Positions 1-9,295 of a stretch of DNA of 64,000 nucleotides are shown piece after piece. The stretch is from a virus. The stretch's first letter is position 1. Each line of letters opens with the position of its first letter. The stretch is taken from positions 1 through 64,000 of IMG/VR virus record IMGVR_UViG_3300031951_000074. One strand, written 5' to 3'. The position numbers were made by a program, and so were the translations under genes. The notes beneath the pieces were generated by a model that saw nothing but the letters and a program-made list of their open reading frames with translations, ran no database searches and was not told the origin of the DNA.

Positions 1-18
1 GTGTGATTTTTTGCTAGT

Positions 19-138
19 TTTTCCACTGGCGCAGGCGGCTTTTGGGGAATAAATTTTTCAAGGTTTTCCACTGGCGCAGGTGGCCAACAACTTCAAAAAT
101 TTCAAGGTTTTCCACTGGCGCAGGTGGGTCACCTGCGC
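19..138. repeat. Three 20-bp direct repeats and a terminal hairpin
   Basis: A 20-bp unit, TTTTCCACTGGCGCAGG(C/T)GG, occurs at 19-38, 64-83 and 108-127, a period of 44-45 bp; copies 2 and 3 also share upstream flank. The last copy runs into a perfect inverted repeat, GCGCAGGTG at 118-126 and CACCTGCGC at 130-138. No gene overlaps it. A protein-binding array (origin, partition or packaging site) is possible, but function is unknown. Confidence 0.7.
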
Positions 139-151
139 TAATTAAGTGGTT

Positions 152-208
152 GCTTATATTCGTGAACGCTTATATAAGCCGACTCTTATATAAGCGGCGG
201 CTTATATA
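152..208. repeat. Iteron-like CTTATATAAGC repeats
   Basis: Four full or partial copies of a palindromic 12-mer, GCTTATATAAGC, lie at 152-160 (partial), 168-179, 185-195 and 200-208 (partial). The copies sit 12-17 bp apart. The stretch 1-407 holds no convincing gene: only these repeats, the 20-bp repeats to the left, and the first promoter/stem-loop cassette to the right. AT-rich iterated palindromes suit an origin or operator, which is inference. Confidence 0.55.
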
Positions 209-297
209 CACCCAAACCCTCCATTGTATCATGTGCCCGGGGGTGGGGTCAAGTGGTTTTTCTACCACACACGACTCGTGGGGTCTTTCGAAAAACC

Positions 298-336
298 TTG
301 ACAACCTCACCAAAATTATGATATAATTTTGGCGCC
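298..336 (+). promoter_or_regulatory. Cassette 1 plus-strand promoter in palindrome
   Basis: TTGACA (298-303), 18 bp, TATAAT (322-327), then GGCGCC. The -10 lies in CCAAAATTAT-GAT-ATAATTTTGG. It points into the 3' end of a minus-strand gene and no plus-strand gene follows. Confidence 0.75.
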
Positions 337-338
337 AT

Positions 339-373
339 AATACCCCTATAACCTGGTCAACAATAGGGGTATT
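339..373. terminator. Cassette 1 stem-loop
   Basis: An 11-bp perfect stem (339-349 with 363-373) encloses a 13-nt loop. That loop carries ACCTGGTCAAC, which resembles the GGTCAAC element found upstream of other cassettes. Unlike the other cassettes, the loop is long. Confidence 0.6.
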
Positions 374-379
374 AGGTCA

Positions 380-412
380 AATAATAAGGGGCTATAAGCC
401 CCTTTTATTATT
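380..412 (-). terminator. Terminator of the 54-aa gene
   Basis: GGGGCT-ATA-AGCCCC (388-402), extended by A-rich and T-rich arms, overlaps the stop codon of the small minus-strand gene at 408. Together with the cassette 1 hairpin it ends the leftmost minus-strand operon. Confidence 0.7.
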
Positions 413-572
413 CCCTGATATGTTCTAGTATATCCGTGGCCAATTCTTCCATTTCCTTTGTAATATCCACATCAGACATCGGCTGTAGAGCCAGTTTAAT
501 AATAAGTGCCAACCGTATCATTTCCTCATGACTGAGTACAATAATATATTCAGTTTTGGTTTCAATTTGCAT
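408..572 (-). CDS. Small hypothetical protein, 54 aa
   Basis: A short acidic ORF that starts at ATG 572 with a textbook AAGGAG Shine-Dalgarno about 9 nt upstream and ends inside the terminator at 380-412. The protein begins MQIETKTEYIIVL and has a C-terminal helix rich in Glu and Met; no family is recognised. It lies 29 bp downstream of the SprT-like gene and is probably co-transcribed with it. The strong ribosome binding site and close fit to the terminator are the main reasons to believe it is real. Confidence 0.7.
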   Translation of the reverse strand: MQIETKTEYIIVLSHEEMIRLALIIKLALQPMSDVDITKEMEELATDILEHIRE

Positions 573-601
573 TTTTGATTCTCCTTTTGAAAATGCGGAT
601 T

Positions 602-988
602 TTAGTCCAGATCAGTAACTGGTGAATATAATTCTCCCGTACTGAATCCTAGATCATTTAGTATCTTTTCTAGGTGTGTTGCAATTAATTGGAATCGGTC
701 ATCGTGATGATAGTTTTCATTAAAGCTGTTATCCTCGATCATTTTGGCATGGATTAATTCGTGTGCAATTACCCCATACACATCAAAATTGGATTCCAAT
801 GTCTGGCCTAAATTAATGACAATTTTGTGTTTTTGGAGACGGTTATTGCGAAACACAGTATCGCACCAACCTGCCAAACCACGATGAGTCTTATTATAAA
901 CTCGGGTTTTCAATACTACGTCAACGGGTTTGTGTATTTCCAATACAGAAACCACGGCTTGAATCAACAACAATACATCAGGTTTCAT
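602..988 (-). CDS. SprT-like zinc metalloprotease domain protein
   Basis: A 128-aa protein with HELIHAKM near residue 75, the HExxH zinc site of the SprT/WSS1 metallopeptidase fold, followed by His-His-Asp-Asp, which could supply the third ligand. It is shorter than bacterial SprT and lacks the C-terminal zinc ribbon, so it is a minimal phage version. Family members act on DNA-bound proteins; the substrate here is unknown. The ATG at 988 has no clear Shine-Dalgarno and sits about 9 nt after a stem-loop (997-1022), so expression may depend on read-through from the upstream exonuclease gene. A second, unrelated-looking HExxH protein lies at 4769-5134. Confidence 0.75.
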   Translation of the reverse strand: MKPDVLLLIQAVVSVLEIHKPVDVVLKTRVYNKTHRGLAGWCDTVFRNNRLQKHKIVINLGQTLESNFDVYGVIAHELIHAKMIEDNSFNENYHHDDRFQLIATHLEKILNDLGFSTGELYSPVTDLD

Positions 989-996
989 GGTGTTTT

Positions 997-1022
997 ATAT
1001 GGGGGTTATTAGCCCCCATATA
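997..1022. terminator. Stem-loop between exonuclease and SprT-like genes
   Basis: ATATGGGGG and CCCCCATAT form a hairpin just after the stop codon of the exonuclease gene. It has the form of the cassette stem-loops but no plus-strand promoter accompanies it, so it may be a leaky intra-operon terminator. Confidence 0.6.
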
Positions 1023-1025
1023 TAT

Positions 1026-1724
1026 TTACTTTGCGACGAAGTGTTCTTTTACTTGGTGTTTTTTCCAATCATATGGAATTACCTTTTCTCGCCAATCACG
1101 CTTTTTCAAGATATTGACCAGAACGGGAACTTCAAAATCCCGCGCATCTTCCAGTGCAGTATGTGGCTCAACCTTAAACTCGCCACACACAAAACCACAA
1201 ACTGCTTCCGCCGTGGTTTTGTAGGTCATGTTTTGGTTGACGGTAGGGGAATTGAATAGATGGTTATCGATGCAAAACTGCCGATAGCGCTTAGTATGGG
1301 TAATATTACCGATACTAGCTTGCCAAAGACAGAATTTGTCATTGAAGATATTCAAATCAATTCCGGTTTTGTCGCATTTGTCGCGATCAAAAGCCAGATT
1401 GTATGCGGTAAGGGTAGGGTTATACTTACCCACAGCCTGATTCAGCCATTTATTAATGGCAGCTGTCGAAGCCAGCATACGAACACCAGAATTCAGCATG
1501 GATACATATGCTGCTTTACGCTTTTCCAGTCCCTCATAACCCCAAATATCATTTGCACGTTTATCGTGGAACAATTCATATGTGCAGTAATGGTCTTTTA
1601 CCAATACTGCACATTGGTTGTAAATCTTGCCATCACGGTCAACAATAACCGCAGCAAAATCAGCTACAGTATCTTGCATTGTGGTTTCAGTATCGACCAC
1701 GCACCAGAATTGCTTTTTAGCCAT
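1026..1724 (-). CDS. DEDD-family 3'-5' exonuclease (RNase T/DnaQ-like)
   Basis: A 232-aa protein from ATG 1724, where AAGGTT serves as a weak Shine-Dalgarno. The N-terminal VVDTETT (residues about 10-16) is Exo I with the D-x-E metal ligands, AYNLAFDRDKCD is Exo II, and HTALEDARD near residue 205 is Exo III with the H-x4-D ending of DEDDh enzymes. The fold cuts nucleotides from 3' ends of DNA or RNA; the phage substrate cannot be told. A promoter (TTGCAG-17-TACACT) lies about 65 bp upstream. An extra in-frame stretch up to 1775 lacks a ribosome binding site and was left out. Confidence 0.85.
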   Translation of the reverse strand: MAKKQFWCVVDTETTMQDTVADFAAVIVDRDGKIYNQCAVLVKDHYCTYELFHDKRANDIWGYEGLEKRKAAYVSMLNSGVRMLASTAAINKWLNQAVGKYNPTLTAYNLAFDRDKCDKTGIDLNIFNDKFCLWQASIGNITHTKRYRQFCIDNHLFNSPTVNQNMTYKTTAEAVCGFVCGEFKVEPHTALEDARDFEVPVLVNILKKRDWREKVIPYDWKKHQVKEHFVAK

Positions 1725-1788
1725 ATTAACCTTCACACATGAAACCGGAAAGGGCCGGAGTCTCGCCCATGCCAACTGGCACCCGGCG

Positions 1789-1817
1789 AGTGTAACGCTT
1801 TTTGTGACTCACTGCAA
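1789..1817 (-). promoter_or_regulatory. Minus-strand promoter of exonuclease gene
   Basis: TTGCAG (1817-1812), 17 bp, TACACT (1794-1789), read on the minus strand. Confidence 0.6.
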
Positions 1818-1852
1818 GCCCCTACAGTGTGGTCAACTATTGACCAGGCGGC

Positions 1853-1889
1853 TTGACGGGGGCCAATTATATAATATATAATTGGCGCC
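1853..1889 (+). promoter_or_regulatory. Cassette 2 plus-strand promoter in palindrome
   Basis: TTGACG (1853-1858), 18 bp, TATAAT (1877-1882), GGCGCC. The palindrome is CCAATTATAT-AAT-ATATAATTGG. It is preceded at about 1831 by GGTCAACTATTGACC, itself an inverted repeat. Confidence 0.75.
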
Positions 1890-1914
1890 AATATAAGGGT
1901 TTACCCTTATATTG
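1889..1914. terminator. Cassette 2 stem-loop
   Basis: A perfect 12-bp stem (1889-1900 with 1903-1914) and a 2-nt loop. It ends 2 bp before the stop codon of the PQ-loop gene. Confidence 0.7.
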
Positions 1915-1916
1915 AT

Positions 1917-2165
1917 TTATTTCCTTTCCCAGATTTTATATCTTATCATTATGACGACGAAAAACAGATTTAGTATGTAGTTGAATAACAGTGGCATATC
2001 TCCTTTTGGAAATATATAAACAATGGTGAATAACTCCCCAAAGAACCAACAACCCAAGAAAAAGGGGTTTAATCCTCGGGCGTGGCCGTCTTTTGCACAT
2101 TGCAAAACCTGGGGAATTGCACATATTGCAAATAATATGCTACCAATCCAACCTATAGTTTCCAT
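1917..2165 (-). CDS. PQ-loop (SWEET/MtN3-like) membrane protein
   Basis: An 82-aa protein with about three hydrophobic helices. It starts METIGWIGSILFAICAIPQV, the Pro-Gln of the PQ-loop signature closing the first helix, then continues GLNPFFLGCWFFGEL, as in the second helix of semiSWEET-like half transporters. Such proteins work as dimers to move small solutes across membranes; a phage role is unknown. Its ATG lies beside the TAA of the phosphatase gene (TAAAATG), so translation is probably coupled. It would sit in the host inner membrane. Confidence 0.75.
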   Translation of the reverse strand: METIGWIGSILFAICAIPQVLQCAKDGHARGLNPFFLGCWFFGELFTIVYIFPKGDMPLLFNYILNLFFVVIMIRYKIWERK

Positions 2166-2166
2166 T

Positions 2167-2631
2167 TTAGTGACCCTGAACCGAGGGAATATAAACACCG
2201 CGGATATTGAAATGGTCGCAAACTGCTTTTAGGTAACTCACATTGTCTTCGTAAAATACACAGTCCGCAGTCTTGAATTGCTTCAAATTGAAAAACTTTT
2301 GCAAACCCTTGATTTTAAGAGTTTTGCCAGACTGGTTATCACCGTCACGACGCGAGATAAGGTAATCGGGGCTGCCGAGAATCTCACGGATAAACACATT
2401 ATCCAATTCGCGCACAATACGCGCAGTGGCGATAATTACATAAGTATTTGGATCTTGCAAGTCATTGCGATATTGAGACACAAGAGGAAGCAAACCATCT
2501 TGCATACACCGATTTTCATTATCGCGCCAGTATTGCAAATCGATTTTGACAATACCATTTTCTGTTATTGTGCGGTAACGGTGACTGCTATCAACGATCG
2601 TGCCATCCATGTCATATATCGCAACCTTCAT
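2167..2631 (-). CDS. HAD-family phosphatase, T4 Pnkp 3'-phosphatase-like
   Basis: 154 aa from ATG 2631 with an AAGGGG ribosome site. Residues 4-14, IYDMDGTIVDS, are HAD motif I with the nucleophile and acid/base Asp pair; VIIATAR is motif II; a Lys lies in GKTLKIKG; and FYEDNVSYL is motif IV. The layout matches phosphatase domains of phage polynucleotide kinase-type repair enzymes, which remove 3' phosphates, but no kinase P-loop is present. Nucleotidase activity is an alternative. First gene of a two-gene operon with the PQ-loop protein, driven by TTGTGT-17-TACACT. Confidence 0.8.
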   Translation of the reverse strand: MKVAIYDMDGTIVDSSHRYRTITENGIVKIDLQYWRDNENRCMQDGLLPLVSQYRNDLQDPNTYVIIATARIVRELDNVFIREILGSPDYLISRRDGDNQSGKTLKIKGLQKFFNLKQFKTADCVFYEDNVSYLKAVCDHFNIRGVYIPSVQGH

Positions 2632-2658
2632 TTTGAACCCCTTGTTTTGTAGAGCCCG

Positions 2659-2687
2659 AGTGTAGCACGTTCGGCCAGGCGACACAA
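2659..2687 (-). promoter_or_regulatory. Minus-strand promoter of phosphatase operon
   Basis: TTGTGT (2687-2682), 17 bp, TACACT (2664-2659) preceded by TGC (extended -10). Confidence 0.7.
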
Positions 2688-2734
2688 GCCCCCAACAATG
2701 ACCCTACGTCGTGGTCAACCATTGACCAGGCCGC

Positions 2735-2773
2735 TTGACACGGTTGCCAATATTATGTTATAATATTGGCGCC
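2735..2773 (+). promoter_or_regulatory. Cassette 3 plus-strand promoter in palindrome
   Basis: TTGACA (2735-2740), 18 bp, TATAAT (2759-2764), GGCGCC. Palindrome GCCAATATTAT-GTT-ATAATATTGGC. The element GGTCAACCATTGACC lies about 20 bp upstream. Confidence 0.75.
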
Positions 2774-2833
2774 CCTATTAGGGTTAACCCTAATAGGGGC
2801 TTTTAAATAATAAGGGGTATAACCCCTTATTAT
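2772..2833. terminator. Cassette 3 double stem-loop
   Basis: A perfect 14-bp-arm palindrome (2772-2785 with 2786-2799) is followed by a second hairpin, 2807-2818 with 2822-2833, abutting the stop codon of the 110-aa gene. Confidence 0.7.
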
Positions 2834-2834
2834 G

Positions 2835-3167
2835 TCACGCAATGGCTTTTGCAATATCTCGAGCCTTTGCACCCAGTCGGTTAATAATGGTTTCTGACCA
2901 GTGGCCGCCAATATTGCACGGCAATACTTGCATACTCGCCCAACGGTCCAACACAAGATACTCGGCAACATCGTAGCGATACAGGGATTCTTCTACGCTG
3001 GCAAGACTCACAGCAAATTTGCCAGTATCGATGCCGGTTTGCTTGATACCAACACAAACCCCCAGCAAGGGAAAATGAAAGATAACCACGTCGGGATAAT
3101 CCGCCCGCATATCTTGCAGAATATCCAATTCCGTATCGTTCAAGACGGTCTGGTTCACGTTACGCAT
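2835..3167 (-). CDS. Hypothetical protein, 110 aa
   Basis: Starts at ATG 3167 with AAAGGG 8 nt upstream. The sequence is mixed alpha/beta: an N-terminal acidic helix (LNDTELDILQDMRADYPD), then a hydrophobic strand (VVIFHFPLLGVCVGI) and a C-terminal helical part with GGHWSETIINRLG. No family is recognised. It is a single-gene unit between the HTH gene upstream and the cassette 3 terminator downstream. It contains no membrane segment long enough to be convincing. Confidence 0.75.
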   Translation of the reverse strand: MRNVNQTVLNDTELDILQDMRADYPDVVIFHFPLLGVCVGIKQTGIDTGKFAVSLASVEESLYRYDVAEYLVLDRWASMQVLPCNIGGHWSETIINRLGAKARDIAKAIA

Positions 3168-3201
3168 GATAAGCCCTTTCTATGGCTTGGTTGGGAAAAT
3201 G

Positions 3202-3252
3202 GTTTGCTTAGGGCATATTATACCCTAAGCAAACCCCTTTCGGGGTTTGCTT
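3202..3252 (-). promoter_or_regulatory. Two mutually exclusive hairpins with embedded TATAAT
   Basis: On the minus strand, hairpin A (3252-3227, AAGCAAACCCC with GGGGTTTGCTT) follows the HTH gene. Hairpin B (3233-3222 with 3213-3202) uses the same AAGCAAAC segment, so both cannot form at once. The loop of B contains TATAAT (3222-3217), a possible -10 for the 110-aa gene with a poor -35. Confidence 0.55.
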
Positions 3253-3255
3253 CAA

Positions 3256-3588
3256 TCATTCGATTGGACGGGAATTGGCCAGTGCATCAAAGATCGCCTT
3301 CAATGCACGTTTGTTAGCCTTGGTGAGGCTATCAACGTCAGGCTCAGACAGCATAAGGATCTTGCCGATAGCCTCGGCGTGTGCATCCTTCTTCACGGGA
3401 GACTCACCAGTCTTGGTAACATAGGTCTTCTTCTGGTAAACACCCTCACGACTCAGTTTCGCAACAATCGAGCGAACCGATTTACCGAGACTCTCGGCAA
3501 GGGCTTCGACCGTAGTGCCGGCCTTGTACGCTTCGACCAGAGCAGCAGTCTGCTCAGGAGTATAATTCACAACCTTTTCAGTGGCCAT
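3256..3588 (-). CDS. Helix-turn-helix DNA-binding protein, copy 1
   Basis: 110 aa from ATG 3588. Residues about 9-50 (NYTPEQTAALVEAY, then VEALAESLGKSVRSIVAKL) look like a helix-turn-helix in which the second helix follows an LGKSVRS turn. The next part, SREGVY-KKTYVTKTGE, is strongly conserved with the 106-aa protein at 5511-5831. The family is common among phage hypothetical regulators; targets are unknown. Two stacked minus-strand promoters lie upstream, one of them near-perfect (TTGACG-17-TATAAT), the strongest minus promoter in this arm. It is a plausible regulator of the repeated promoter cassettes, which is inference only. Confidence 0.8.
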   Translation of the reverse strand: MATEKVVNYTPEQTAALVEAYKAGTTVEALAESLGKSVRSIVAKLSREGVYQKKTYVTKTGESPVKKDAHAEAIGKILMLSEPDVDSLTKANKRALKAIFDALANSRPIE

Positions 3589-3661
3589 TTTCAGTTTCTC
3601 CGAGTTAACACGCATGGGGAAATTTTGGCAATGCCGGGCAATCCCCTCAACCTATGCTGAT

Positions 3662-3690
3662 ATTATACAGGGTCAACATTCCCCCGTCAA
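3662..3690 (-). promoter_or_regulatory. Proximal promoter of HTH gene
   Basis: TTGACG (3690-3685), 17 bp, TATAAT (3667-3662): close to sigma70 consensus. Confidence 0.75.
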
Positions 3691-3734
3691 GTATTGTGTT
3701 TTCTTTCCTTTCTGTTCGTCGTCGTCAGGGACAC

Positions 3735-3763
3735 AGTATAACGGTTTTTCAGCCTGGACACAA
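3735..3763 (-). promoter_or_regulatory. Distal promoter of HTH gene
   Basis: TTGTGT (3763-3758), 17 bp, TATACT (3740-3735), followed by GTGT. The leader has an AAAGGAAAG ribosome site but no usable start codon behind it, as if a gene once started here. Confidence 0.7.
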
Positions 3764-3791
3764 TACCCTAGTGCATCGTGGGGTCTTTGCG

Positions 3792-3835
3792 CCAGGCGGT
3801 GATCGGCGGTTAACCAGGCGGTGATCGGCAGTTAA
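3792..3835. repeat. Tandem 22-bp repeat
   Basis: Two copies of CCAGGCGGTGATCGGC(G/A)GTTAA at 3792-3813 and 3814-3835 with one mismatch, followed by CCAGG. It sits between the distal HTH promoter and cassette 4. Confidence 0.8.
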
Positions 3836-3852
3836 CCAGGGGTAAGTCCCTA

Positions 3853-3890
3853 TTGACAGGTGTATTAGAACATGATATAATTTTGGCGCA
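3853..3890 (+). promoter_or_regulatory. Cassette 4 plus-strand promoter (no palindrome)
   Basis: TTGACA (3853-3858), 17 bp, TATAAT (3876-3881), GGCGCA. The -35/-10 and TATAATTTTGGCGC are kept although the palindrome is absent, which supports a real plus-strand promoter. Confidence 0.8.
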
Positions 3891-3983
3891 CCCCATAGGT
3901 AACACCTATGGGGTGCGGCGGCTCAATAGGTAACACCTATTGAGCCACAAACAAAAAAGCCGACAAAAACAGTCGGCTTTTTT
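3888..3983 (+). ncRNA. Candidate three-hairpin small RNA
   Basis: A transcript from the cassette 4 promoter would start near 3888. It would contain a 13-bp stem (3888-3900 with 3904-3916), a 12-bp stem (3920-3931 with 3935-3946) and a terminator (3953-3964 with 3972-3983, ending in six T). The first two hairpins share the AATAGGT-AAC-ACCTATT type apex. No ORF lies between 3884 and 4068, so this roughly 96-nt unit is not antisense to a gene. An empty cassette that lost its gene is the alternative. Confidence 0.45.
3953..3983. terminator. Strong bidirectional terminator
   Basis: AAAAAAGCCGAC and GTCGGCTTTTTT with a 7-nt loop give A/T tracts on both sides. Confidence 0.85.
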
Positions 3984-3992
3984 GTGTGGCCC

Positions 3993-4031
3993 TTGACAGG
4001 GCCCAAAATTATATGTTATAATTTTGGCGCA
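3993..4031 (+). promoter_or_regulatory. Cassette 5 plus-strand promoter in palindrome
   Basis: TTGACA (3993-3998), 18 bp, TATAAT (4017-4022), GGCGCA. Palindrome CCAAAATTATA-TGT-TATAATTTTGG, 11-bp arms. Confidence 0.75.
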
Positions 4032-4059
4032 AATTAGCCGCCTGGCCAGGCGGCTAATT
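4032..4059. terminator. Cassette 5 stem-loop
   Basis: A perfect 28-bp palindrome (14-bp arms, no spare loop) with a GC-rich apex, GCCTGGCCAGGC. The stem sequence is unlike any other copy. The next gene's stop codon is 9 bp away. Confidence 0.65.
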
Positions 4060-4068
4060 ATACTGCGA

Positions 4069-4233
4069 TTATTCGTCGGTGTTGACGACGATGGTGGAAA
4101 CGTGGGGGTCAGAAGCGGGAACAGCTTCCTCCAGCATCTTGACCCTATACGACACCCAGTTGATGCTGGTGTAGTATTCCTGATGATGCTTGAAGTGCTC
4201 TTGGTCCCACCATTCGATCATGTAAACCTTCAT
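4069..4233 (-). CDS. Hypothetical protein, 54 aa
   Basis: Starts at ATG 4233 after AGGAAAGGAACCC. The product begins MKVYMIEWWDQEHFK and is rich in His, Trp and Tyr in the first half and acidic at the end. No family is recognised. It forms a single-gene unit behind a weak TATACT-type promoter (4263-4291) whose leader, TGTTCTCTGCAACAGGAAAGGAAC, is nearly the same as leaders of other small genes in this arm. Confidence 0.7.
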   Translation of the reverse strand: MKVYMIEWWDQEHFKHHQEYYTSINWVSYRVKMLEEAVPASDPHVSTIVVNTDE

Positions 4234-4262
4234 TTGGGTTCCTTTCCTGTTGCAGAGAACAC

Positions 4263-4291
4263 AGTATAACGCTTTTTAAGCCACACAGCAC
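4263..4291 (-). promoter_or_regulatory. Minus-strand promoter of 54-aa gene
   Basis: TATACT (4268-4263) matches the local -10. The -35 at 17 bp (GTGCTG) is poor. Confidence 0.45.
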
Positions 4292-4328
4292 ATACCCGAG
4301 CGCATCGTGGGGTCTTTTAGCCAGGCCC

Positions 4329-4367
4329 TTGACAGGGCCCAAAATTATATGTTATAATTTTGGCGCC
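4329..4367 (+). promoter_or_regulatory. Cassette 6 plus-strand promoter in palindrome
   Basis: TTGACA (4329-4334), 18 bp, TATAAT (4353-4358), GGCGCC. The core from TTGACA to GGCGC is identical to cassette 5. Confidence 0.75.
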
Positions 4368-4398
4368 ATAATAACCCTATATATTATAGGGTTATTAT
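4368..4398. terminator. Cassette 6 stem-loop
   Basis: A perfect 14-bp stem (4368-4381 with 4385-4398) and 3-nt loop, 7 bp from the stop codon of the 53-aa gene. Confidence 0.7.
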
Positions 4399-4405
4399 GT
4401 GGTCG

Positions 4406-4567
4406 TTAGAAAAACCCCATGTTGATGATTTTGTAGTCCAGTTTGGGGCACTTTTTGCCTAAATTCTTTTTCAATTCTACACAATCCCTTTCTAAATCCG
4501 ACAGGTTTTGATAGTGACACACCAAAACATTATCGAAAAACAAACCCCAGACTTTTACAACACCCAT
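4406..4567 (-). CDS. Hypothetical protein, 53 aa
   Basis: Its ATG at 4567 overlaps the end of the upstream membrane-protein gene by 13 nt, so translation is probably coupled. The protein begins MGVVKVWGLFFDNVLVC, a beta-strand-like stretch, then has a charged helix (SDLERDCVELKKNLG) and two Cys. No family is recognised. It is the last gene of the operon before the cassette 6 terminator. Confidence 0.65.
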   Translation of the reverse strand: MGVVKVWGLFFDNVLVCHYQNLSDLERDCVELKKNLGKKCPKLDYKIINMGFF

Positions 4568-4767
4568 TTTGAAATCCCCACCAGGTTAGCGCACAAGAAA
4601 AACCCATTCAATACACTGAGGGATTTATCCCTTTTCGTGATCCCGATATATAGCCACGATATCGAACCAATAATAAACAAACTGTATCCCAAAATATATA
4701 TCTGAAACGCAACCAGAAAACTGCCGATAACCGAGCTTATAGTGCCTAGCCACGATATATACCCCAT
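4555..4767 (-). CDS. Small membrane protein, 70 aa
   Basis: Two to three hydrophobic helices: WLGTISSVIGSFLVAFQ, then YSLFIIGSISWLYIGI, then a short charged loop (TKRDKS) and a final hydrophobic helix. The opening GYISWLGTISSVIGS recalls the helix 1 pattern of the PQ-loop protein at 1917-2165, but the Pro-Gln is missing. It starts one base after the stop codon of the metalloprotease-like gene. An inner-membrane location is expected; function is unknown. Confidence 0.7.
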   Translation of the reverse strand: MGYISWLGTISSVIGSFLVAFQIYILGYSLFIIGSISWLYIGITKRDKSLSVLNGFFLCANLVGISKWVL

Positions 4768-4768
4768 T

Positions 4769-5134
4769 TTAGACCCGTTTGTAGTTTACCATGTTATGGC
4801 ATCGTTCTGGAGGCAGACCTAATTCTTTCATAATCTTTTTCCAGCTTTTGCCATGCCCAAAATCATTATACACCAGAAAAGCCACACAGTGTGCCAATTC
4901 ATGGGGAATAATAACCCTACAAAATTCGTCGGGATATTGTTCGAACAATTCAACCGACAAATCTATACACTGCGGATTGCGCTCAATAAAAGCACGTCCT
5001 GCGGTAGTTTTCAGCCGTTTATTCAAAACTACCGCAGGAGCAGTTTTGGTTAAGCTGGGGTACAGAAAGCACAGTATATCCCAAGTGTCTTGGGCACTGC
5101 GGTCTGCCATTTCTTGCATTGTGGGGGCTTTCAT
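4769..5134 (-). CDS. SprT-like zinc metallopeptidase domain protein
   Basis: 121 aa with IIPHELAHCVAF near residue 79 (HExxH) and, about 16 residues later, GHGKSWKKIMKELG, whose His is the usual third zinc ligand in the SprT-like fold. It ends with Cys-His and so lacks a full zinc ribbon. It is the first gene of a three-gene operon with two small downstream proteins. The -10 (TAGAAT) lies only 7 nt from the ATG, so the mRNA may be leaderless. It shares little with the SprT-like protein at 602-988 beyond the motif. Confidence 0.8.
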   Translation of the reverse strand: MKAPTMQEMADRSAQDTWDILCFLYPSLTKTAPAVVLNKRLKTTAGRAFIERNPQCIDLSVELFEQYPDEFCRVIIPHELAHCVAFLVYNDFGHGKSWKKIMKELGLPPERCHNMVNYKRV

Positions 5135-5141
5135 GGGCTGG

Positions 5142-5170
5142 ATTCTACTACAAAAATTTGGCTATCACAA
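5142..5170 (-). promoter_or_regulatory. Promoter giving a leaderless mRNA
   Basis: TTGTGA (5170-5165), 17 bp, TAGAAT (5147-5142). Only 7 nt separate the -10 from the start codon at 5134. Confidence 0.6.
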
Positions 5171-5205
5171 GACCCCTCGACCAGGTCAACTATTCCACAT
5201 GGGGC

Positions 5206-5244
5206 TTGACACGGTTGCCAATATTATATTATAATATTGGCGCC
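5206..5244 (+). promoter_or_regulatory. Cassette 7 plus-strand promoter in palindrome
   Basis: TTGACA (5206-5211), 18 bp, TATAAT (5230-5235), GGCGCC. Palindrome GCCAATATTAT-ATT-ATAATATTGGC, as in cassette 3. Confidence 0.75.
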
Positions 5245-5270
5245 AGTATTAGGGTTTACCCTAATACTGG
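5243..5270. terminator. Cassette 7 stem-loop
   Basis: A perfect 13-bp stem (5243-5255 with 5258-5270) and 2-nt loop. It ends the four-gene operon 5276-6144. Confidence 0.7.
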
Positions 5271-5275
5271 CCTTA

Positions 5276-5467
5276 TTAAATAGGTACGACTTTGTAGACA
5301 GTATGTTGGACGACCCTTACAGGAATACCGTCGAATACTTGAAGATGTTCCATATTCAGGGGTTTGTCGCCAGACAACAATTCCAATTCTTCCACAAATT
5401 CTTCCACCGTTGAACCTGCGCCAATATACTCGGCCCTATCGCTGGCAATATAGATTCCAAACAGCAT
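5276..5467 (-). CDS. Hypothetical protein, 63 aa
   Basis: Starts at ATG 5467 with AAAGGAAAC as ribosome site. It begins MLFGIYIASDRAEYIGAGST, then an acidic helix (VEEFVEELELL), then strands ending RVVQHTVYKVVPI. The alternation of short strands around one helix suggests a small alpha/beta domain. No family is recognised. It is the last gene of the operon that includes the second HTH protein. Confidence 0.7.
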   Translation of the reverse strand: MLFGIYIASDRAEYIGAGSTVEEFVEELELLSGDKPLNMEHLQVFDGIPVRVVQHTVYKVVPI

Positions 5468-5510
5468 GATGTTTCCTTTCTTGAAAAAGGGGGATATTAT
5501 CCCCCGGATA

Positions 5511-5831
5511 TCACACGATGAGCGAGAGCTTTTGCAGTACCTTTTGCAATGCGGTTTTGTTCGCCTTGGTGAGACTGCTAATCTCGGGTTCACTCAATTC
5601 ACAAAGAGCCCCGATTTTGTCTGCAAGCTCTTCTTTCGAAACAACTGTTTCACCAGTTTTGGTGACATACTCCTTTTTCCTGTAAACACCTTCCCGGCTG
5701 AGTTTAGCTACCACGCTGCGGACACTCTTGCCCAGCGTGGCCGCAATACTTTCTACGGGAACACCCTTGCTATACCCGTCCAGCATTTGTTGGACCTGCT
5801 CGGGAGTATAGTTTGCGGTTTTCTCAGTCAT
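5511..5831 (-). CDS. Helix-turn-helix DNA-binding protein, copy 2
   Basis: 106 aa from ATG 5831 (AAAGGAAAG). It is clearly a paralogue of the protein at 3256-3588: both have NYTPEQ near the start, LGKSVRS(V/I)VAKLSREGVY in the middle, YVTKTGE next, and LTKANK near the C-terminus. Differences concentrate in the first helix and in the linker, so the two copies may recognise different sites or form heterodimers. Middle gene of an operon driven by TTGTGT-17-TATACT. Confidence 0.8.
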   Translation of the reverse strand: MTEKTANYTPEQVQQMLDGYSKGVPVESIAATLGKSVRSVVAKLSREGVYRKKEYVTKTGETVVSKEELADKIGALCELSEPEISSLTKANKTALQKVLQKLSLIV

Positions 5832-5846
5832 CTTCTTTCCTTTCAA

Positions 5847-5942
5847 TCAAAGACCATCGCCGACAACAATAGCAATTCCCATTGCAAGAATCGCCACCCA
5901 GAATGGGCTAGTAGCCCAGATAATCAGAAAAAGATCAGACAT
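5847..5942 (-). CDS. 31-aa membrane peptide
   Basis: ATG 5942 follows AGAGGGG at good spacing. The peptide is MSDLFLIIWATSPFWVAILA followed by a Gly/Val-rich end: almost wholly hydrophobic, so a single-span inner-membrane peptide. It is too short to assign. The gene sits 15 nt upstream of the HTH copy 2 start and one base downstream of the 66-aa gene. Confidence 0.6.
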   Translation of the reverse strand: MSDLFLIIWATSPFWVAILAMGIAIVVGDGL

Positions 5943-5943
5943 T

Positions 5944-6144
5944 TTAACCCCTCTTTGAATAAACAATCAGACCCGTGAGATACTCGCGCTTACCCGCCAT
6001 GTAGCTGCGACGCACCACATAGGACTTCAAGCCCTTACTGTTGGCGGCTTCGATAGCCCCCGTCAGCAAGCTGTGCGACTCCAGCACAGCGGGCTTGTGA
6101 GCGACTTCACTAACATACACAGTGTAAACAGGCTCGTAACCCAT
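5944..6144 (-). CDS. Hypothetical protein, 66 aa
   Basis: The start chosen is ATG 6144, which has GGAGA 6 nt upstream. An upstream in-frame ATG at 6174 lies only 7 nt from the -10 and would give a leaderless 76-aa form. The product begins MGYEPVYTVYVSEV and ends in a basic strand-rich part (YVVRRSYMAGKREYLTGLIVY). No family is recognised. First gene of a four-gene operon. Confidence 0.7.
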   Translation of the reverse strand: MGYEPVYTVYVSEVAHKPAVLESHSLLTGAIEAANSKGLKSYVVRRSYMAGKREYLTGLIVYSKRG

Positions 6145-6181
6145 CGAAGGTCTCCGGTTGTTCGTCGTTTCCATGGGACAC

Positions 6182-6210
6182 AGTATAACGCTTTTTCGGC
6201 CTGGACACAA
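6182..6210 (-). promoter_or_regulatory. Promoter of the 5276-6144 operon
   Basis: TTGTGT (6210-6205), 17 bp, TATACT (6187-6182), then GTGT. Upstream GACCCCAC is shared with several other minus promoters of this arm. Confidence 0.7.
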
Positions 6211-6261
6211 TACCCTAGTGTGTTGTGGGGTCTTTGAGCCAGGCCTAGGGGTAAGTCCCTA

Positions 6262-6299
6262 TTGACAGCAAGAATTTGGTGTGGTATAATTTTGGCGCC
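6262..6299 (+). promoter_or_regulatory. Cassette 8 plus-strand promoter (no palindrome)
   Basis: TTGACA (6262-6267), 17 bp, TATAAT (6285-6290), GGCGCC. Like cassette 4 it keeps promoter and GGCGCC but not the palindrome, and its upstream AGGGGTAAGTCCCTATTGACAG matches cassette 4. Confidence 0.8.
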
Positions 6300-6332
6300 A
6301 CAAAAACCCTACAGATTGTAGGGTTTTTGTGG
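6298..6332. terminator. Cassette 8 stem-loop, gene-less
   Basis: A perfect 16-bp stem (6298-6313 with 6317-6332) and 3-nt loop, the longest of the family. Only 8 bp separate it from the -35 of cassette 9, so no gene belongs to this copy. Confidence 0.75.
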
Positions 6333-6340
6333 CCAGGCCG

Positions 6341-6379
6341 TTGACACGGCCCAAAATTATGTGCTATAATTTTGGCGCC
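6341..6379 (+). promoter_or_regulatory. Cassette 9 plus-strand promoter
   Basis: TTGACA (6341-6346), 18 bp, TATAAT (6365-6370, extended TGC before it), GGCGCC. Palindrome arms are 10 bp around GTGCT. Confidence 0.75.
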
Positions 6380-6380
6380 C

Positions 6381-6409
6381 CAAAGCCCCTGCACATTGCA
6401 GGGGCTTTG
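6381..6409. terminator. Cassette 9 stem-loop
   Basis: A perfect 13-bp stem (6381-6393 with 6397-6409) with AAGCCCC/GGGGCTT core, 2 bp from the stop codon of the 55-aa gene. Confidence 0.75.
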
Positions 6410-6411
6410 TG

Positions 6412-6579
6412 TTACTTTGACCGGCTGGCCCGAGCCGCCTTGACCTGGCGGTTACGCTCCGCCTTTTCGCGACGGTTACGCTCCAGCCGAGCCTTGCGCT
6501 CTCGTTCATCGGCACGCTTGTGAGCAACAGGAGCCAGACCCAGACCAGCACGCAGTTCGTTGATTTGATTCAGGTTCAT
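6412..6579 (-). CDS. Small basic coiled-coil protein, 55 aa
   Basis: Starts at ATG 6579 with TAGGAG 8-9 nt upstream. After MNLNQINELRAGLGLAPVAH the rest is a charged helix dominated by Arg, Lys, Glu and Ala (about 15 Arg). It probably forms one long helix and may bind nucleic acid. No family is recognised. Second gene of a two-gene operon with the 66-aa gene. Confidence 0.7.
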   Translation of the reverse strand: MNLNQINELRAGLGLAPVAHKRADERERKARLERNRREKAERNRQVKAARASRSK

Positions 6580-6616
6580 TTCAGTCACTCCTAGAAAAGC
6601 CCTTTCGGGCAGGTAA

Positions 6617-6817
6617 TCACTTGATCCTGGCCACAGCCATTTCAGTGTGGCCGACCACGGCATCGACGACCTTTTCGGAATCGTCCATAGCATCCGCCAG
6701 CATTCCGGACAGGTATCCGACAATAAAGGTTTCGGTAGCATCGCCAGACCAACCCTCAGAAGTCTTAGCATCACGAAGGGCTTGAATCAGGGCACGGGCT
6801 TTGTCGATGTTGGTCAT
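6617..6817 (-). CDS. Hypothetical protein, 66 aa, paralogue A
   Basis: Starts at ATG 6817 (AGAGGAACC). A mostly helical protein with the central segment ETFIVGYLSGMLADAM, matched by ESFVVGYLTGMLASAV in the protein at 7003-7194; the two are tandem paralogues. The opening MTNIDKARALIQALRDA is an amphipathic helix. No family is recognised. The gene is led by TTGCAC-16-TATACT. Confidence 0.75.
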   Translation of the reverse strand: MTNIDKARALIQALRDAKTSEGWSGDATETFIVGYLSGMLADAMDDSEKVVDAVVGHTEMAVARIK

Positions 6818-6847
6818 TTCGGGTTCCTCTTGTGTTGCAGTAGACAC

Positions 6848-6875
6848 AGTATAGCACAACACCAAGCCCGTGCAA
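6848..6875 (-). promoter_or_regulatory. Promoter of the 6412-6817 operon
   Basis: TTGCAC (6875-6870), 16 bp, TGC-TATACT (6853-6848). Confidence 0.65.
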
Positions 6876-6921
6876 CACCTAAATTTTAGCCCTTTGACCA
6901 GGTCAACCATTGTGGAAGCGC

Positions 6922-6960
6922 TTGACCCGGCCCAAAATTATGTGCTATAATTTTGGCGCC
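6922..6960 (+). promoter_or_regulatory. Cassette 10 plus-strand promoter
   Basis: TTGACC (6922-6927), 18 bp, TATAAT (6946-6951), GGCGCC. The core matches cassette 9. Confidence 0.7.
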
Positions 6961-6962
6961 AT

Positions 6963-6989
6963 AAAGCCCCCACAATCTGTGGGGGCTTT
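6963..6989. terminator. Cassette 10 stem-loop
   Basis: A perfect 12-bp stem (6963-6974 with 6978-6989). The next stop codon is 14 bp away. Confidence 0.7.
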
Positions 6990-7002
6990 GATTGATTGGT
7001 GA

Positions 7003-7194
7003 TTACTTTGACTTCAAGTCATTCGTGTGCCATTCCACGCTACGCGCCACGTCCTCGTTTTCGCGCACAGCACTGGCCAGCATACCCGTCAGGTAACCGA
7101 CAACAAAGGACTCGGAATAGCCCTTCTTGGCAGCGTGCTCGCGGGCGGCCTGGAGCAGGGCCTGGACTTGGTTGTAGGCTTCGGTAGCAGTCAT
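7003..7194 (-). CDS. Hypothetical protein, 63 aa, paralogue B
   Basis: Starts at ATG 7194 (AAAGGAAC). A paralogue of the 66-aa protein at 6617-6817, sharing the central (I/V)VGYL(S/T)GMLA core and a following acidic helix. It begins MTATEAYNQVQALLQAARE. Having its own promoter and cassette, it looks like a duplication of the whole gene-plus-cassette unit. Function is unknown. Confidence 0.75.
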   Translation of the reverse strand: MTATEAYNQVQALLQAAREHAAKKGYSESFVVGYLTGMLASAVRENEDVARSVEWHTNDLKSK

Positions 7195-7224
7195 CTCGTG
7201 TTCCTTTCCTGTTGCAGTGAACGC

Positions 7225-7252
7225 AGTATAGCACAACACCATGCTCATGCAA
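7225..7252 (-). promoter_or_regulatory. Promoter of the 63-aa gene
   Basis: TTGCAT (7252-7247), 16 bp, TGC-TATACT (7230-7225). Near-identical to the promoter at 6848-6875. Confidence 0.65.
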
Positions 7253-7299
7253 CATCTAAAATTTAACCCCTCAGTGTGGTCAACTATCCAGGCACCCGC

Positions 7300-7336
7300 T
7301 TGACAGGACCCAATTATATAATATATAATTGGCGCC
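7300..7336 (+). promoter_or_regulatory. Cassette 11 plus-strand promoter in palindrome
   Basis: TTGACA (7300-7305), 18 bp, TATAAT (7324-7329), GGCGCC. Palindrome identical to cassette 2. Confidence 0.75.
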
Positions 7337-7360
7337 CGAATAGGGGTTTACCCCTATTCG
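7337..7360. terminator. Cassette 11 stem-loop
   Basis: A perfect 11-bp stem (7337-7347 with 7350-7360) directly touching the stop codon at 7361. Confidence 0.7.
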
Positions 7361-7492
7361 TTATTCTTCATATACTATGAAGTATGGAGTTTCCCCATAA
7401 TCTCCAGAGTATTCAATGGGATGGTCTGGATTGAACAGAGTCATATCAATACCAGTATCCCAGAAAACATCAAAAACCCAGTCTTGATACAT
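7361..7492 (-). CDS. Hypothetical protein, 43 aa
   Basis: ATG 7492 follows AAAGGAAG. The peptide begins MYQDWVFDVFWDTG and is acidic and aromatic (many Tyr, Phe, Trp, Asp), with no Lys or Arg at all. That composition resembles small phage proteins that mimic nucleic acid or bind host enzymes, but this is only a resemblance. Last gene of a three-gene operon. Confidence 0.65.
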   Translation of the reverse strand: MYQDWVFDVFWDTGIDMTLFNPDHPIEYSGDYGETPYFIVYEE

Positions 7493-7502
7493 ATACTTCC
7501 TT

Positions 7503-7727
7503 TCAATAGTCCAACCAATCGCCCATACTCTCGATTTTGGCGGCTGCTTCTTCCACACTAATAACGTGTGGAATGTGCGATACCCAAGTCGGGCTATCGG
7601 GGCCAATATACATAACACAGCACCAGCGGCCCGTAGCACCACGGGCCAGACAATGGATGCCCTGTATGGGCCGGGGATACTTCGTACCCGTGATATCACA
7701 CTCGGTGATAGTGCCAAAAACCATCAT
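7503..7727 (-). CDS. Hypothetical protein, 74 aa
   Basis: ATG 7727 has AGGAG 8 nt upstream. It begins MMVFGTITECDITGTKYP and ends in an acidic helix (VISVEEAAAKIESMGDWL). Three Cys and several short strands suggest a compact alpha/beta domain; no family is recognised. It lies between the 64-aa and 43-aa genes with gaps of 20 and 10 bp. Confidence 0.7.
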   Translation of the reverse strand: MMVFGTITECDITGTKYPRPIQGIHCLARGATGRWCCVMYIGPDSPTWVSHIPHVISVEEAAAKIESMGDWLDY

Positions 7728-7747
7728 GGTATATACTCCTGATTTGA

Positions 7748-7942
7748 TTACGCCATTACCCGAGCGATATACGCCTGGGCCTGTTCCACAGTCTTAAAAG
7801 ACTTGACCTGCTTGGTGACCCAGTAGGCATCCTGCCGGATGGTGTCAAACTTGAACACCTGCACTTGGACAGTGCGAGTAGCCCACGGTACAACAAACGC
7901 CCTGACAGTGCCAAGGGCCGGGGGAGTGTAGGTGTTGGTCAT
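7748..7942 (-). CDS. Hypothetical protein, 64 aa
   Basis: ATG 7942 follows AGAGGAAC. It begins MTNTYTPPALGTVRAFVVPW and ends with a helix (VKSFKTVEQAQAYIARVM). The central part, strand-rich and basic, ends before a VxxAQAYIA helix often seen in small phage proteins. First gene of the operon 7361-7942. No function can be given. Confidence 0.7.
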   Translation of the reverse strand: MTNTYTPPALGTVRAFVVPWATRTVQVQVFKFDTIRQDAYWVTKQVKSFKTVEQAQAYIARVMA

Positions 7943-7972
7943 CTCGTGTTCCTCTTGTCTTGCTGTGAACAC

Positions 7973-8000
7973 AGTATAGCACAACACCACACCAGCACAA
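7973..8000 (-). promoter_or_regulatory. Promoter of the 7361-7942 operon
   Basis: TTGTGC (8000-7995), 16 bp, TGC-TATACT (7978-7973). Confidence 0.65.
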
Positions 8001-8046
8001 CATCAAAATTTTAACCCCTCGACCAGGTCAACTATTGTGCGGGGGC

Positions 8047-8085
8047 TTGACCGGGCCACCAAAATTATGATATAATTTTGGCGCC
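8047..8085 (+). promoter_or_regulatory. Cassette 12 plus-strand promoter in palindrome
   Basis: TTGACC (8047-8052), 18 bp, TATAAT (8071-8076), GGCGCC. Palindrome as in cassette 1. Confidence 0.7.
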
Positions 8086-8109
8086 ACAATAGGGGTAAAC
8101 CCCTATTGT
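8086..8109. terminator. Cassette 12 stem-loop
   Basis: A perfect 11-bp stem (8086-8096 with 8099-8109) directly touching the stop codon at 8110. Confidence 0.7.
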
Positions 8110-8244
8110 TTATTCTGTTAGTTCTCTGTATACCTGATCATAACTAACACAGTATTCCCAGGCTGCATTTCTGCAAGCATCAAAGAAACTCATGTGATAT
8201 ACAGACATCAATTGCTTTGCGTAACACACGGCAGCTTCAAGCAT
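8110..8244 (-). CDS. Hypothetical protein, 44 aa
   Basis: ATG 8244 follows AAAGGAAC. The sequence is MLEAAVCYAKQLMSVYHMSF and onward, a helical peptide rich in Ala, Cys and Tyr that resembles a small helical bundle subunit. No family is recognised. It lies 10 bp downstream of the 67-aa gene. Confidence 0.6.
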   Translation of the reverse strand: MLEAAVCYAKQLMSVYHMSFFDACRNAAWEYCVSYDQVYRELTE

Positions 8245-8254
8245 TTTGTTCCTT

Positions 8255-8458
8255 TCAAACCCGAAACGTGGGGTTGACACCCACCTTGTCAGCCACCATC
8301 CACACGTACTCCACGTACACTTCTTCTTCGCGGGCAGCCTGGGCCGCCACGTCCAGCTCCCAGTTGGCTTGGTCGTATTCTTCACGAATGGTCATCTCAG
8401 CCATGTCCAGCTCAAAGGACTCAATGTCTTCACGGGTCATGTCGGTGGGGTAGTACAT
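8255..8458 (-). CDS. Acidic helical protein, 67 aa
   Basis: ATG 8458 with AAGGAG 8 nt upstream. A strongly acidic, mostly helical protein: MYYPTDMTREDIESFELDMA, then repeated Glu-rich turns and a C-terminal VADKVGVNPTFRV. It could be an anti-host protein or DNA mimic by charge alone, but no family is recognised. First gene of a two-gene operon led by TTGACA-18-TATACT. Confidence 0.7.
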   Translation of the reverse strand: MYYPTDMTREDIESFELDMAEMTIREEYDQANWELDVAAQAAREEEVYVEYVWMVADKVGVNPTFRV

Positions 8459-8490
8459 CTTGGGGGCTCCTTGTCTGTGTCAGTAGAGTT

Positions 8491-8520
8491 AGTATAACGC
8501 AAAACAGCGTGTTGTGTCAA
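8491..8520 (-). promoter_or_regulatory. Promoter of the 8110-8458 operon
   Basis: TTGACA (8520-8515), 18 bp, TATACT (8496-8491). Confidence 0.7.
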
Positions 8521-8554
8521 ACCCGATCTTTGTGTGGGGTCTTTGACCAGGCCC

Positions 8555-8593
8555 TTGACCGGGCCACCAAAATTATGATATAATTCTGGCGCC
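8555..8593 (+). promoter_or_regulatory. Cassette 13 plus-strand promoter, degenerate palindrome
   Basis: TTGACC (8555-8560), 18 bp, TATAAT (8579-8584), TCTGGCGCC. A T-to-C change after the -10 breaks the palindrome but leaves the promoter intact. Confidence 0.7.
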
Positions 8594-8594
8594 A

Positions 8595-8623
8595 CAAAGC
8601 CCCTACAGATTGTAGGGGCTTTG
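8595..8623. terminator. Cassette 13 stem-loop
   Basis: A perfect 13-bp stem (8595-8607 with 8611-8623), 5 bp from the stop codon at 8629. Confidence 0.7.
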
Positions 8624-8628
8624 GTCAA

Positions 8629-8871
8629 TCACACCAAGGTGTACCGACCCGCATCGTACTCACGAAGCACAGCACGACCGATGTTGGCGTTAGTATCCAT
8701 ATCGAGCCCCCACAACACAACCACGCCGGAAATGTGGCGTGAGGCATCGTGAAAGAAAACCTCTACATCGTCCAGGTTCAGCTCTACCCCATCCTGTTCC
8801 TCGAACACAATGTCCAAGAATTGTTGATTGTTGTAGACCCGGCCGGTGTTGTAAACAATGTGCTTCTTCAT
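8629..8871 (-). CDS. Hypothetical acidic protein, 80 aa
   Basis: ATG 8871 has AGGAG 8-9 nt upstream. It begins MKKHIVYNTGRVYNNQQFLD, then an acidic beta-rich core (IVFEEQDGVELNLDDVEVFF) and ends with a short strand pair. It is probably a small beta-sandwich or barrel; no family is recognised. Second gene of an operon with the 28-aa peptide, closed by the cassette 13 stem-loop. Confidence 0.7.
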   Translation of the reverse strand: MKKHIVYNTGRVYNNQQFLDIVFEEQDGVELNLDDVEVFFHDASRHISGVVVLWGLDMDTNANIGRAVLREYDAGRYTLV

Positions 8872-8882
8872 CTTTGTTCTCC

Positions 8883-8969
8883 TTACATGAAGCGCTGAAC
8901 AAACCAAACCTTCAGCCAGAAAACTATCACAATCGTTTCGACGGCTGCAATGATTTCTGCTGTGGTCAT
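8883..8969 (-). CDS. 28-aa membrane peptide
   Basis: ATG 8969 follows AGAGGAAC at normal spacing. The peptide starts MTTAEIIAAVETIVIVFWLK and is a single hydrophobic helix with a basic end, so a tiny inner-membrane peptide is expected. It lies 11 bp upstream of the 80-aa gene and directly behind the promoter at 9001-9030. Confidence 0.6.
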   Translation of the reverse strand: MTTAEIIAAVETIVIVFWLKVWFVQRFM

Positions 8970-9000
8970 CTTGGTGTTCCTCTCGTGTTGCAGTGATGAC

Positions 9001-9030
9001 AGTATAGCGCAAAACACCACAGTCAGTCAA
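9001..9030 (-). promoter_or_regulatory. Promoter of the 8629-8969 operon
   Basis: TTGACT (9030-9025), 18 bp, TATACT (9006-9001). Confidence 0.65.
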
Positions 9031-9064
9031 ACCCGAGTTTTATGTGGGGTTTTTGAGTGGCCCC

Positions 9065-9094
9065 TTGACGTGGCCCAGGAACACGTGGTACAAT
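9065..9094 (+). promoter_or_regulatory. Plus-strand promoter at arm boundary
   Basis: TTGACG (9065-9070), 18 bp, TACAAT (9089-9094). It resembles the cassette promoters but has no GGCGCC or stem-loop and faces the terminase genes. The 326-bp gap 8970-9295 holds only promoters on both strands; a packaging site is possible here but not visible. Confidence 0.5.
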
Positions 9095-9237
9095 AGGGGC
9101 GGTTAACAGACTAGTTACTTTACTGAGTGTGCTGCGCCCTCCAACACGGCCTCTTTTAAAAAAATATCACACAACACTTTCGGTGCCAAAACCCAGCAAA
9201 TCCTTTTTAAAAATAATACCCAAGTCAAAAATAGTGG

Positions 9238-9266
9238 TTGAATTTTTTTAACACATGTTTTATAAT
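9238..9266 (+). promoter_or_regulatory. Promoter of the packaging/head operon
   Basis: TTGAAT (9238-9243), 17 bp, TATAAT (9261-9266), 29 bp before the small terminase start. Confidence 0.65.
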
Positions 9267-9295
9267 TCAGTTTTACACTACCCACAACACCAACC

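Follow-up and report, generated by a model that had tools for sequence, protein, structure and literature searches.

Does the gene-less interval at positions 3853–3984 of this phage DNA encode a small RNA, or is it something else? The window analysed here is a 64 kb stretch out of a 91,614-base virus record. Within positions 1–9400 it carries 13 plus-strand promoters of one type, and the interval is the one that had been numbered cassette 4. The original prediction regarded it, with its promoter, two hairpins of matching apex and strong terminator, as the best candidate for a dedicated small RNA.

Anatomy of the gene-less cassette

All of the predicted parts are present in the sequence. The promoter (3853–3881, plus strand) consists of TTGACA (3853–3858), a 17 nt spacer and an extended -10, TGnTATAAT (TATAAT, 3876–3881), and scores 12 of 12 against a sigma-70 consensus that may not be the host's. 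Its -10 lies in no palindrome, a configuration that we denote type A. The flank immediately upstream of the -35, AGGGGTAAGTCCCTA (3837–3852, plus strand), recurs at a second gene-less unit at 6262, and CCCTA directly before TTGAC also ends many non-palindromic promoters in relatives. A GGCGC motif common to all elements of this kind (3885–3889, plus strand) leads into hairpin 1 (3888–3916, plus strand), a perfect 13 bp stem with an AAC loop (GTT in the close relative L013). Hairpin 2 (3920–3946, plus strand) has a perfect 12 bp stem and the same apex, AGGT-AAC-ACCT. An intrinsic terminator with a 13 bp stem, AAAAAAGCCGAC...GTCGGCTTTTTT, follows at 3952–3984; with six T on each strand, it can act bidirectionally.

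Transcription is predicted to start at about 3888. The resulting RNA (3888–3984, 97 nt) folds at −64 kcal/mol, against a mean of −19.8 for shuffled sequences (z = −13.8; equalled by 0 of 200 shuffles). An ORF scan of the stretch found no ORF of more than 31 amino acids overlapping the cassette, and neither flanking gene, 3256–3588 (minus) or 4069–4233 (minus), extends into it, so the claim that it is gene-less holds. A transcript of 96–97 nt is a reasonable prediction from the sequence. In L013, 6 of the 17 spacer bases differ, while the -35, the -10, GGCGC and all stems are identical; because they are kept despite the changed spacer, the promoter and stems look selected.

Downstream lies a second element (3993–4060, plus strand), of what we term type B. 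Its promoter has the -10 within a palindrome, CCAAAATTATATGTTATAATTTTGG; GGCGC and a hairpin come next, and the element points at the 3′ end of the gene at 4069–4233 (minus). The promoter of the cassette starts 140 nt before this palindromic element, with the two hairpins and the terminator between them.

The cassette lies in a putative pre-early block

By its gene content the phage is T5-like. Terminase (TerL), portal, head and tail genes run rightward from 9774, the best TerL matches among isolates are Vibrio phages, mostly of 112–114 kb (48% identity), and relatives of T5 D5, DNA polymerase, ligA, D12, D13, D14 and D15 are encoded. The array at 1–9400 consists of small minus-strand genes and includes a homologue of the T5 pre-early gene dmp (2170–2631, minus), which marks it as a pre-early block. 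It adjoins the terminase genes, a position that presumably corresponds to that of the T5 terminal repeat. From these features we infer the array to be the pre-early, first-transfer block.

The gene preceding the cassette (3256–3588, minus) encodes a D5-like small DNA-binding protein of 110 amino acids, a candidate regulator of the array, with a paralogue at 5511–5831 (minus). The D5-like region of both belongs to phrog_323, and relatives of these paralogues occur throughout element-bearing loci (about 200 tBLASTn matches). Any tie between type A units and the D5-like gene is doubtful (10 of 20). Promoters of minus-strand operons containing TATACT, often followed by GTG, also recur (for example at 4262–4290, 8491–8520 and 9001–9030), back to back with the elements. 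In one related record (G006, the record of L070), the TerL frame (94289–95554, minus) contains two in-frame TAG codons; this may be a TAG-recoded phage.

Promoter–GGCGC–hairpin elements form a family

Each of the 13 plus-strand array promoters is followed by GGCGC and a hairpin, and nine of them score 12 of 12. Against an expectation of 0.8, the window contains 18 copies of the pattern TTGAC-N14-26-TATAAT. Besides the element at 3993, type B promoters lie on the plus strand at 298–335 (then a hairpin), 1853–1888, 2735–2772, 4329–4366, 5206–5243, 6341–6378, 6922–6959, 7300–7335, 8047–8084 and 8555–8592. The second gene-less type A unit (6262–6333, plus strand) and the type B element at 6341 form a tandem.

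Using a pattern scan of IMG/VR (at least 119 stretches) and relatives of TerL, we collected at least 317 distinct elements, or at least 226 once near-copies were removed, with the consensus TTGACA-17/18-TATAAT-GGCGC-hairpin and the -10 usually within a palindrome. Genomes carry up to about 15 copies, and a dmp relative was present in at least 91 of the loci searched. In ten T5-like records (82–128 kb), all 71 matches to TTGACN16-20TATAATN1-3GGCGC were on the TerL strand, nearly all within about 15 kb upstream of TerL when contigs were read as permuted, in the block that carries dmp. One element used as a DNA query against 50,697 phage records gave no convincing match among isolate phages, and no similar element was found in the T5 stretch scanned. 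Two exact motif matches in bacterial genomes lack a -35 and look like chance. The family is widespread in uncultured T5-like phages and apparently undescribed.

A typical -10 palindrome is CCAAAATTATnnnATAATTTTGG, with variants, and on the right it closes with the GG of GGCGC. The gap between TATAAT and GGCGC ranges from 0 to 3 nt, and the palindrome moves with GGCGC. Its arms covary, CCAATATTAT occurring with ATAATATTGG, CCGAAATTAT with ATAATTTCGG and CCAATTATA with TATAATTGG. Among 123 non-redundant elements outside the fetch pattern, 56 were at least 90% palindromic, against 0.3 expected with shuffled spacers and 9.8 with spacers swapped between discriminator classes. Since the arms change together, symmetry is kept rather than one sequence, and we rejected a conserved operator of fixed sequence. 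A symmetric, bidirectional -10 is possible but not general, as only 113 of 175 elements have a perfect TATAAT on the opposite strand. Inverted flanks around the -35 were weak (21 versus 8.6 expected).

A stem follows GGCGC in 194 of the 226 collected elements (mean 12 bp) and is perfect in 166. G-T and A-C mismatches are about equally frequent (8 and 9), so neither RNA strand is favoured in the stems. U-tract terminators were found at 50 of 168 palindromic elements on the plus strand (about 30%) and 40 of 168 on the minus strand (24%), with controls of 1.2 and 0.6. The hairpins are not simply plus-strand terminators: the 8 bases after the stems hold 2.9 T against a background of 2.4, and a minority terminate either way.

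Type A promoters lack the -10 palindrome and have CCTA before TTGAC; the cassette at 3853 and the unit at 6262 are both of this kind. In relatives, type A units often lie 78–80 nt upstream of a palindromic element, gene-less and with a single hairpin between (L059, L062, L083, L089, L095, L113 and L115). The cassette at 3853–3984 is one unit of this family and probably not a special small-RNA gene. Two further arrangements were seen. Tandem units of about 160–175 nt in L045, L053, L099 and L125 carry, in the gene-less unit, an opposite-strand sequence resembling TGGTATAAT...GGCGCGCC that runs head-on to the element promoter. A second promoter type (..GCACTGTATAAT, then GGCGC) occurs among edge repeats on the far side of the block (L014, 1733; L018, 1687; G001, 118 and 97198; G003, 68961), with near-identical copies at both contig ends in G001.

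Elements face the ends of convergent operons

Of 152 non-redundant palindromic elements with enough flanking sequence, 141 had a convergent gene nearest downstream, 6 a co-directional one and 5 none, giving a convergent share of 141/147 where such a gene exists. GGCGC lay a median of 78 nt from the convergent stop codon. Operon ends in the window were read by eye, since automated gene calling erred at some boundaries. Every minus-strand operon end examined was followed, before the promoter of the next operon, by an element or, at 9065, by a TACAAT variant, though some of the minus-strand promoter calls there are weak.

The reading that we tentatively prefer, to which we would give somewhat less than an even chance, is that the elements are portable transcription boundaries ending opposing pre-early operons and that the cassette is a doubled boundary. 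It builds on the anatomy, convergent placement, conservation and strand bias of the elements, and on stems that favour neither RNA strand; promoter activity, polymerase encounter and termination at the elements are predicted. In a block with almost exclusively minus-strand genes, each operon would end at an element that combines a very strong plus-strand host promoter with GGCGC and a perfect hairpin. RNA polymerase of the host would load there and, while still held on the near-consensus promoter or as it begins to leave, meet head-on the polymerase finishing the minus-strand operon. The hairpin would position and stabilise this encounter, both transcripts would end at the element, and the promoter of the next operon would be insulated. 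The cassette would reinforce the element at 3993 with an extra promoter, a further pair of hairpins and a bidirectional intrinsic terminator.

Near-consensus promoters can hold polymerase. The T5 N25 promoter has been described as escape rate-limited (PMC12464699). In E. coli, convergent transcription reportedly often ends where two polymerases meet head-on at a hairpin, which prolongs the half-life of the collided complex from 6 to 150 min (PMC13082048). The boundary model does not explain the -10 palindrome with its covarying arms, nor why GGCGC is kept in the elements and avoided elsewhere on the same strand. It is also weakened by two considerations: the majority of elements have no U-tract, and an elongating polymerase usually displaces a single promoter-bound polymerase. 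If the model is correct, a portable, promoter-driven boundary stops transcription by opposing traffic on the DNA that enters the cell first; it would represent a compact insulator of natural origin and a clean test case for head-on polymerase termination.

GGCGC is avoided on the terminase strand outside the array

Outside the array, GGCGC occurs 56 times on the TerL strand against 122 expected, and 125 times on the opposite strand against 118 expected (G000, G002, G004, G005 and G008). Summed over these five divergent genomes, it ranks first of 1024 5-mers for strand-specific avoidance, which holds for genes in either direction and is not clear in each genome singly. The 16 plus-strand copies in the window array are those of the 13 elements and three edge repeats. 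GGCGC is thus likely to be a strand-specific signal. The left-edge repeats, of TTTTCCACTGGCGCAGG type (28–35, 73–80 and 117–124, plus strand), are exact matches to R/GCGCRGG. Repeats of this type resemble those of the T5 injection stop signal (GTCGGATTTGCACAAAAGCGCAGG), and a similar repeat sits at the T5 nick inside that signal.

These observations bring in an alternative, which we consider rather unlikely, that GGCGC on the terminase strand is cut by a phage nickase, as at the R/GCGC interruptions of T5, with the promoter opening the site or acting as a partner. The T5 major nick consensus is R/GCGCRGG (PMC3517423), and the T5 record gives NPu-pGCGCN, with annotated nicks all on one strand, that of the T5 tail genes; likewise, all 71 element matches lie on the terminase strand. 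The avoidance of GGCGC outside the array, and the full accounting of its plus-strand copies by elements and R/GCGCRGG repeats, fit a cut site. So do the palindrome, which abuts GGCGC though its distance to the -10 varies, and the hairpin that directly follows the first nick in T5 too. However, the elements match RGCGC only, the full motif occurring at 28, 73 and 117, and the avoidance is not clear in every single genome. Nicking itself needs no consensus promoter, and the major T5 nicks lie away from promoters; in phage tf, annotated nicks are not within annotated promoters. Moreover, T5 mutants without nicks remain viable, and in phikF77 the nicks undergo repair early during infection (PMC3517423).

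Minus-strand genes are transcribed from the plus strand as template, so a nick immediately beyond the 3′ hairpin could stop their transcription by run-off as well. In a combined version, GGCGC would signal strand-specific cutting or transfer in the block injected first, coupled to a host promoter and a palindrome, and nick–promoter–hairpin units would set the 3′ ends of pre-early mRNAs on incoming DNA. We judge this version improbable; were it true, the single-strand interruptions of T5 would gain a function. A strand-specific GGCGC sharing the T5 nick core makes both the purpose of those interruptions and the organisation of the first-transfer block testable.

Hairpin loops invert between relatives

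Comparison of orthologous hairpin pairs, not all of them independent, revealed 33 with the same loop, 7 with exactly inverted loops and 2 that differed otherwise, so that differing loops were exact inversions in 7 of 9 cases. Swaps of a loop for its exact reverse complement between close relatives were seen at 3901–3903 and 4366–4398 and involved L013, L083, L089 and L106. The inversions point to flipping of the palindromes at the DNA level. Together with the lack of RNA-strand bias in the stems and the restriction of the three-hairpin RNA to two phages (see below), they favour structures that serve both strands, or act as DNA, over a single RNA whose loop is read.

The elements might instead persist mainly as repeats through which small genes are gained, lost and shuffled, like the PeSL cassettes of T4-type phages, with transcription secondary. 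Similar elements do occur many times per genome, and compared with the window L013 has additional units of gene and element near 8100 and 8600, whose breakpoints fall within or next to the repeated promoter–element stretch. Yet element sequences diverge within a genome while the hexamers, GGCGC and palindromy stay, which points to function, and homologous recombination alone requires no strict strand bias such as the 71 of 71 seen here. We hold recombination as their main role to be more doubtful than nicking.

The predicted small RNA is poorly conserved

The least probable reading, and to us a very unlikely one, is a true three-hairpin regulatory RNA from 3888 to 3984, possibly an antisense RNA like RNAI or OOP. 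The consensus promoter, strong fold and terminator favour it, as do the stems and promoter kept in L013; by sequence, the cassette has its own promoter and terminator without an ORF. A resemblance to RNAI (RF00106) reaches 31 bits, below the Rfam gathering cut-off of 47. The window contains no Rfam match at cut-off, and the weak ones near the cassette are sub-threshold look-alikes.

The original prediction had called for a covariance search in relatives. A covariance model, R1, built from the three-hairpin RNA and searched against 1 Mb of relatives, gave strong matches only in this phage and L013, its remaining listed matches being antisense or overlapping hairpin echoes, or weak. Between these two phages 5 of 97 alignment columns differ, with no compensatory stem changes, so conservation of that kind across relatives is absent. 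A single hairpin occupies the corresponding slot in other relatives. The hairpin 1 loop is inverted in L013 (AAC to GTT), as loops of the family generally are, 3-nt loops are poor kissing partners, and no target is known. The small-RNA interpretation is weak; a 96 nt RNA is probably made from the cassette, but chiefly as a by-product.

Comparison with known systems

PeSLs are reportedly promoter-early stem-loop cassettes of T4-type phages, a term associated with Arbiol in 2010 and Comeau in 2014, and the latter is said to describe them as promoter–terminator motifs that mediate shuffling. They share with the elements a strong sigma-70 promoter and stem-loop repeated between small accessory genes, and gene gain and loss. 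The elements are multi-copy and intergenic, and recombination at them alters gene content in one genome pair (the window and L013). Unlike PeSLs, their promoter faces the 3′ end of a neighbour and drives no downstream early gene (141 of 147 convergent), they carry GGCGC and a usually covarying -10 palindrome, and they are confined to one block of T5-like genomes and strictly to one strand.

In the lambda pO-oop-tO unit, too, a promoter pointing towards the 3′ end of a convergent early gene, cII, yields a short terminated RNA (PMC5869508). OOP, however, overlaps 52 bases of cII, whereas most element hairpins stop before the convergent gene; the elements are present in many copies, and the cassette at 3853–3984 overlaps no gene. 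With the T5 interruptions and injection stop signal, the elements share a one-strand R/GCGC core, a terminal block containing dmp, and R/GCGCRGG repeats at the left edge. The major T5 nicks, in contrast, are few and not at promoters, while the elements have only GGCGC and their nicking is putative.

In the collision-type terminators of E. coli ynaJ–uspE, a hairpin lies between head-on transcription units (PMC13082048), as it does in the elements. There, both polymerases come from real genes, whereas the elements supply one of the two from a gene-less, dedicated promoter beside the hairpin.
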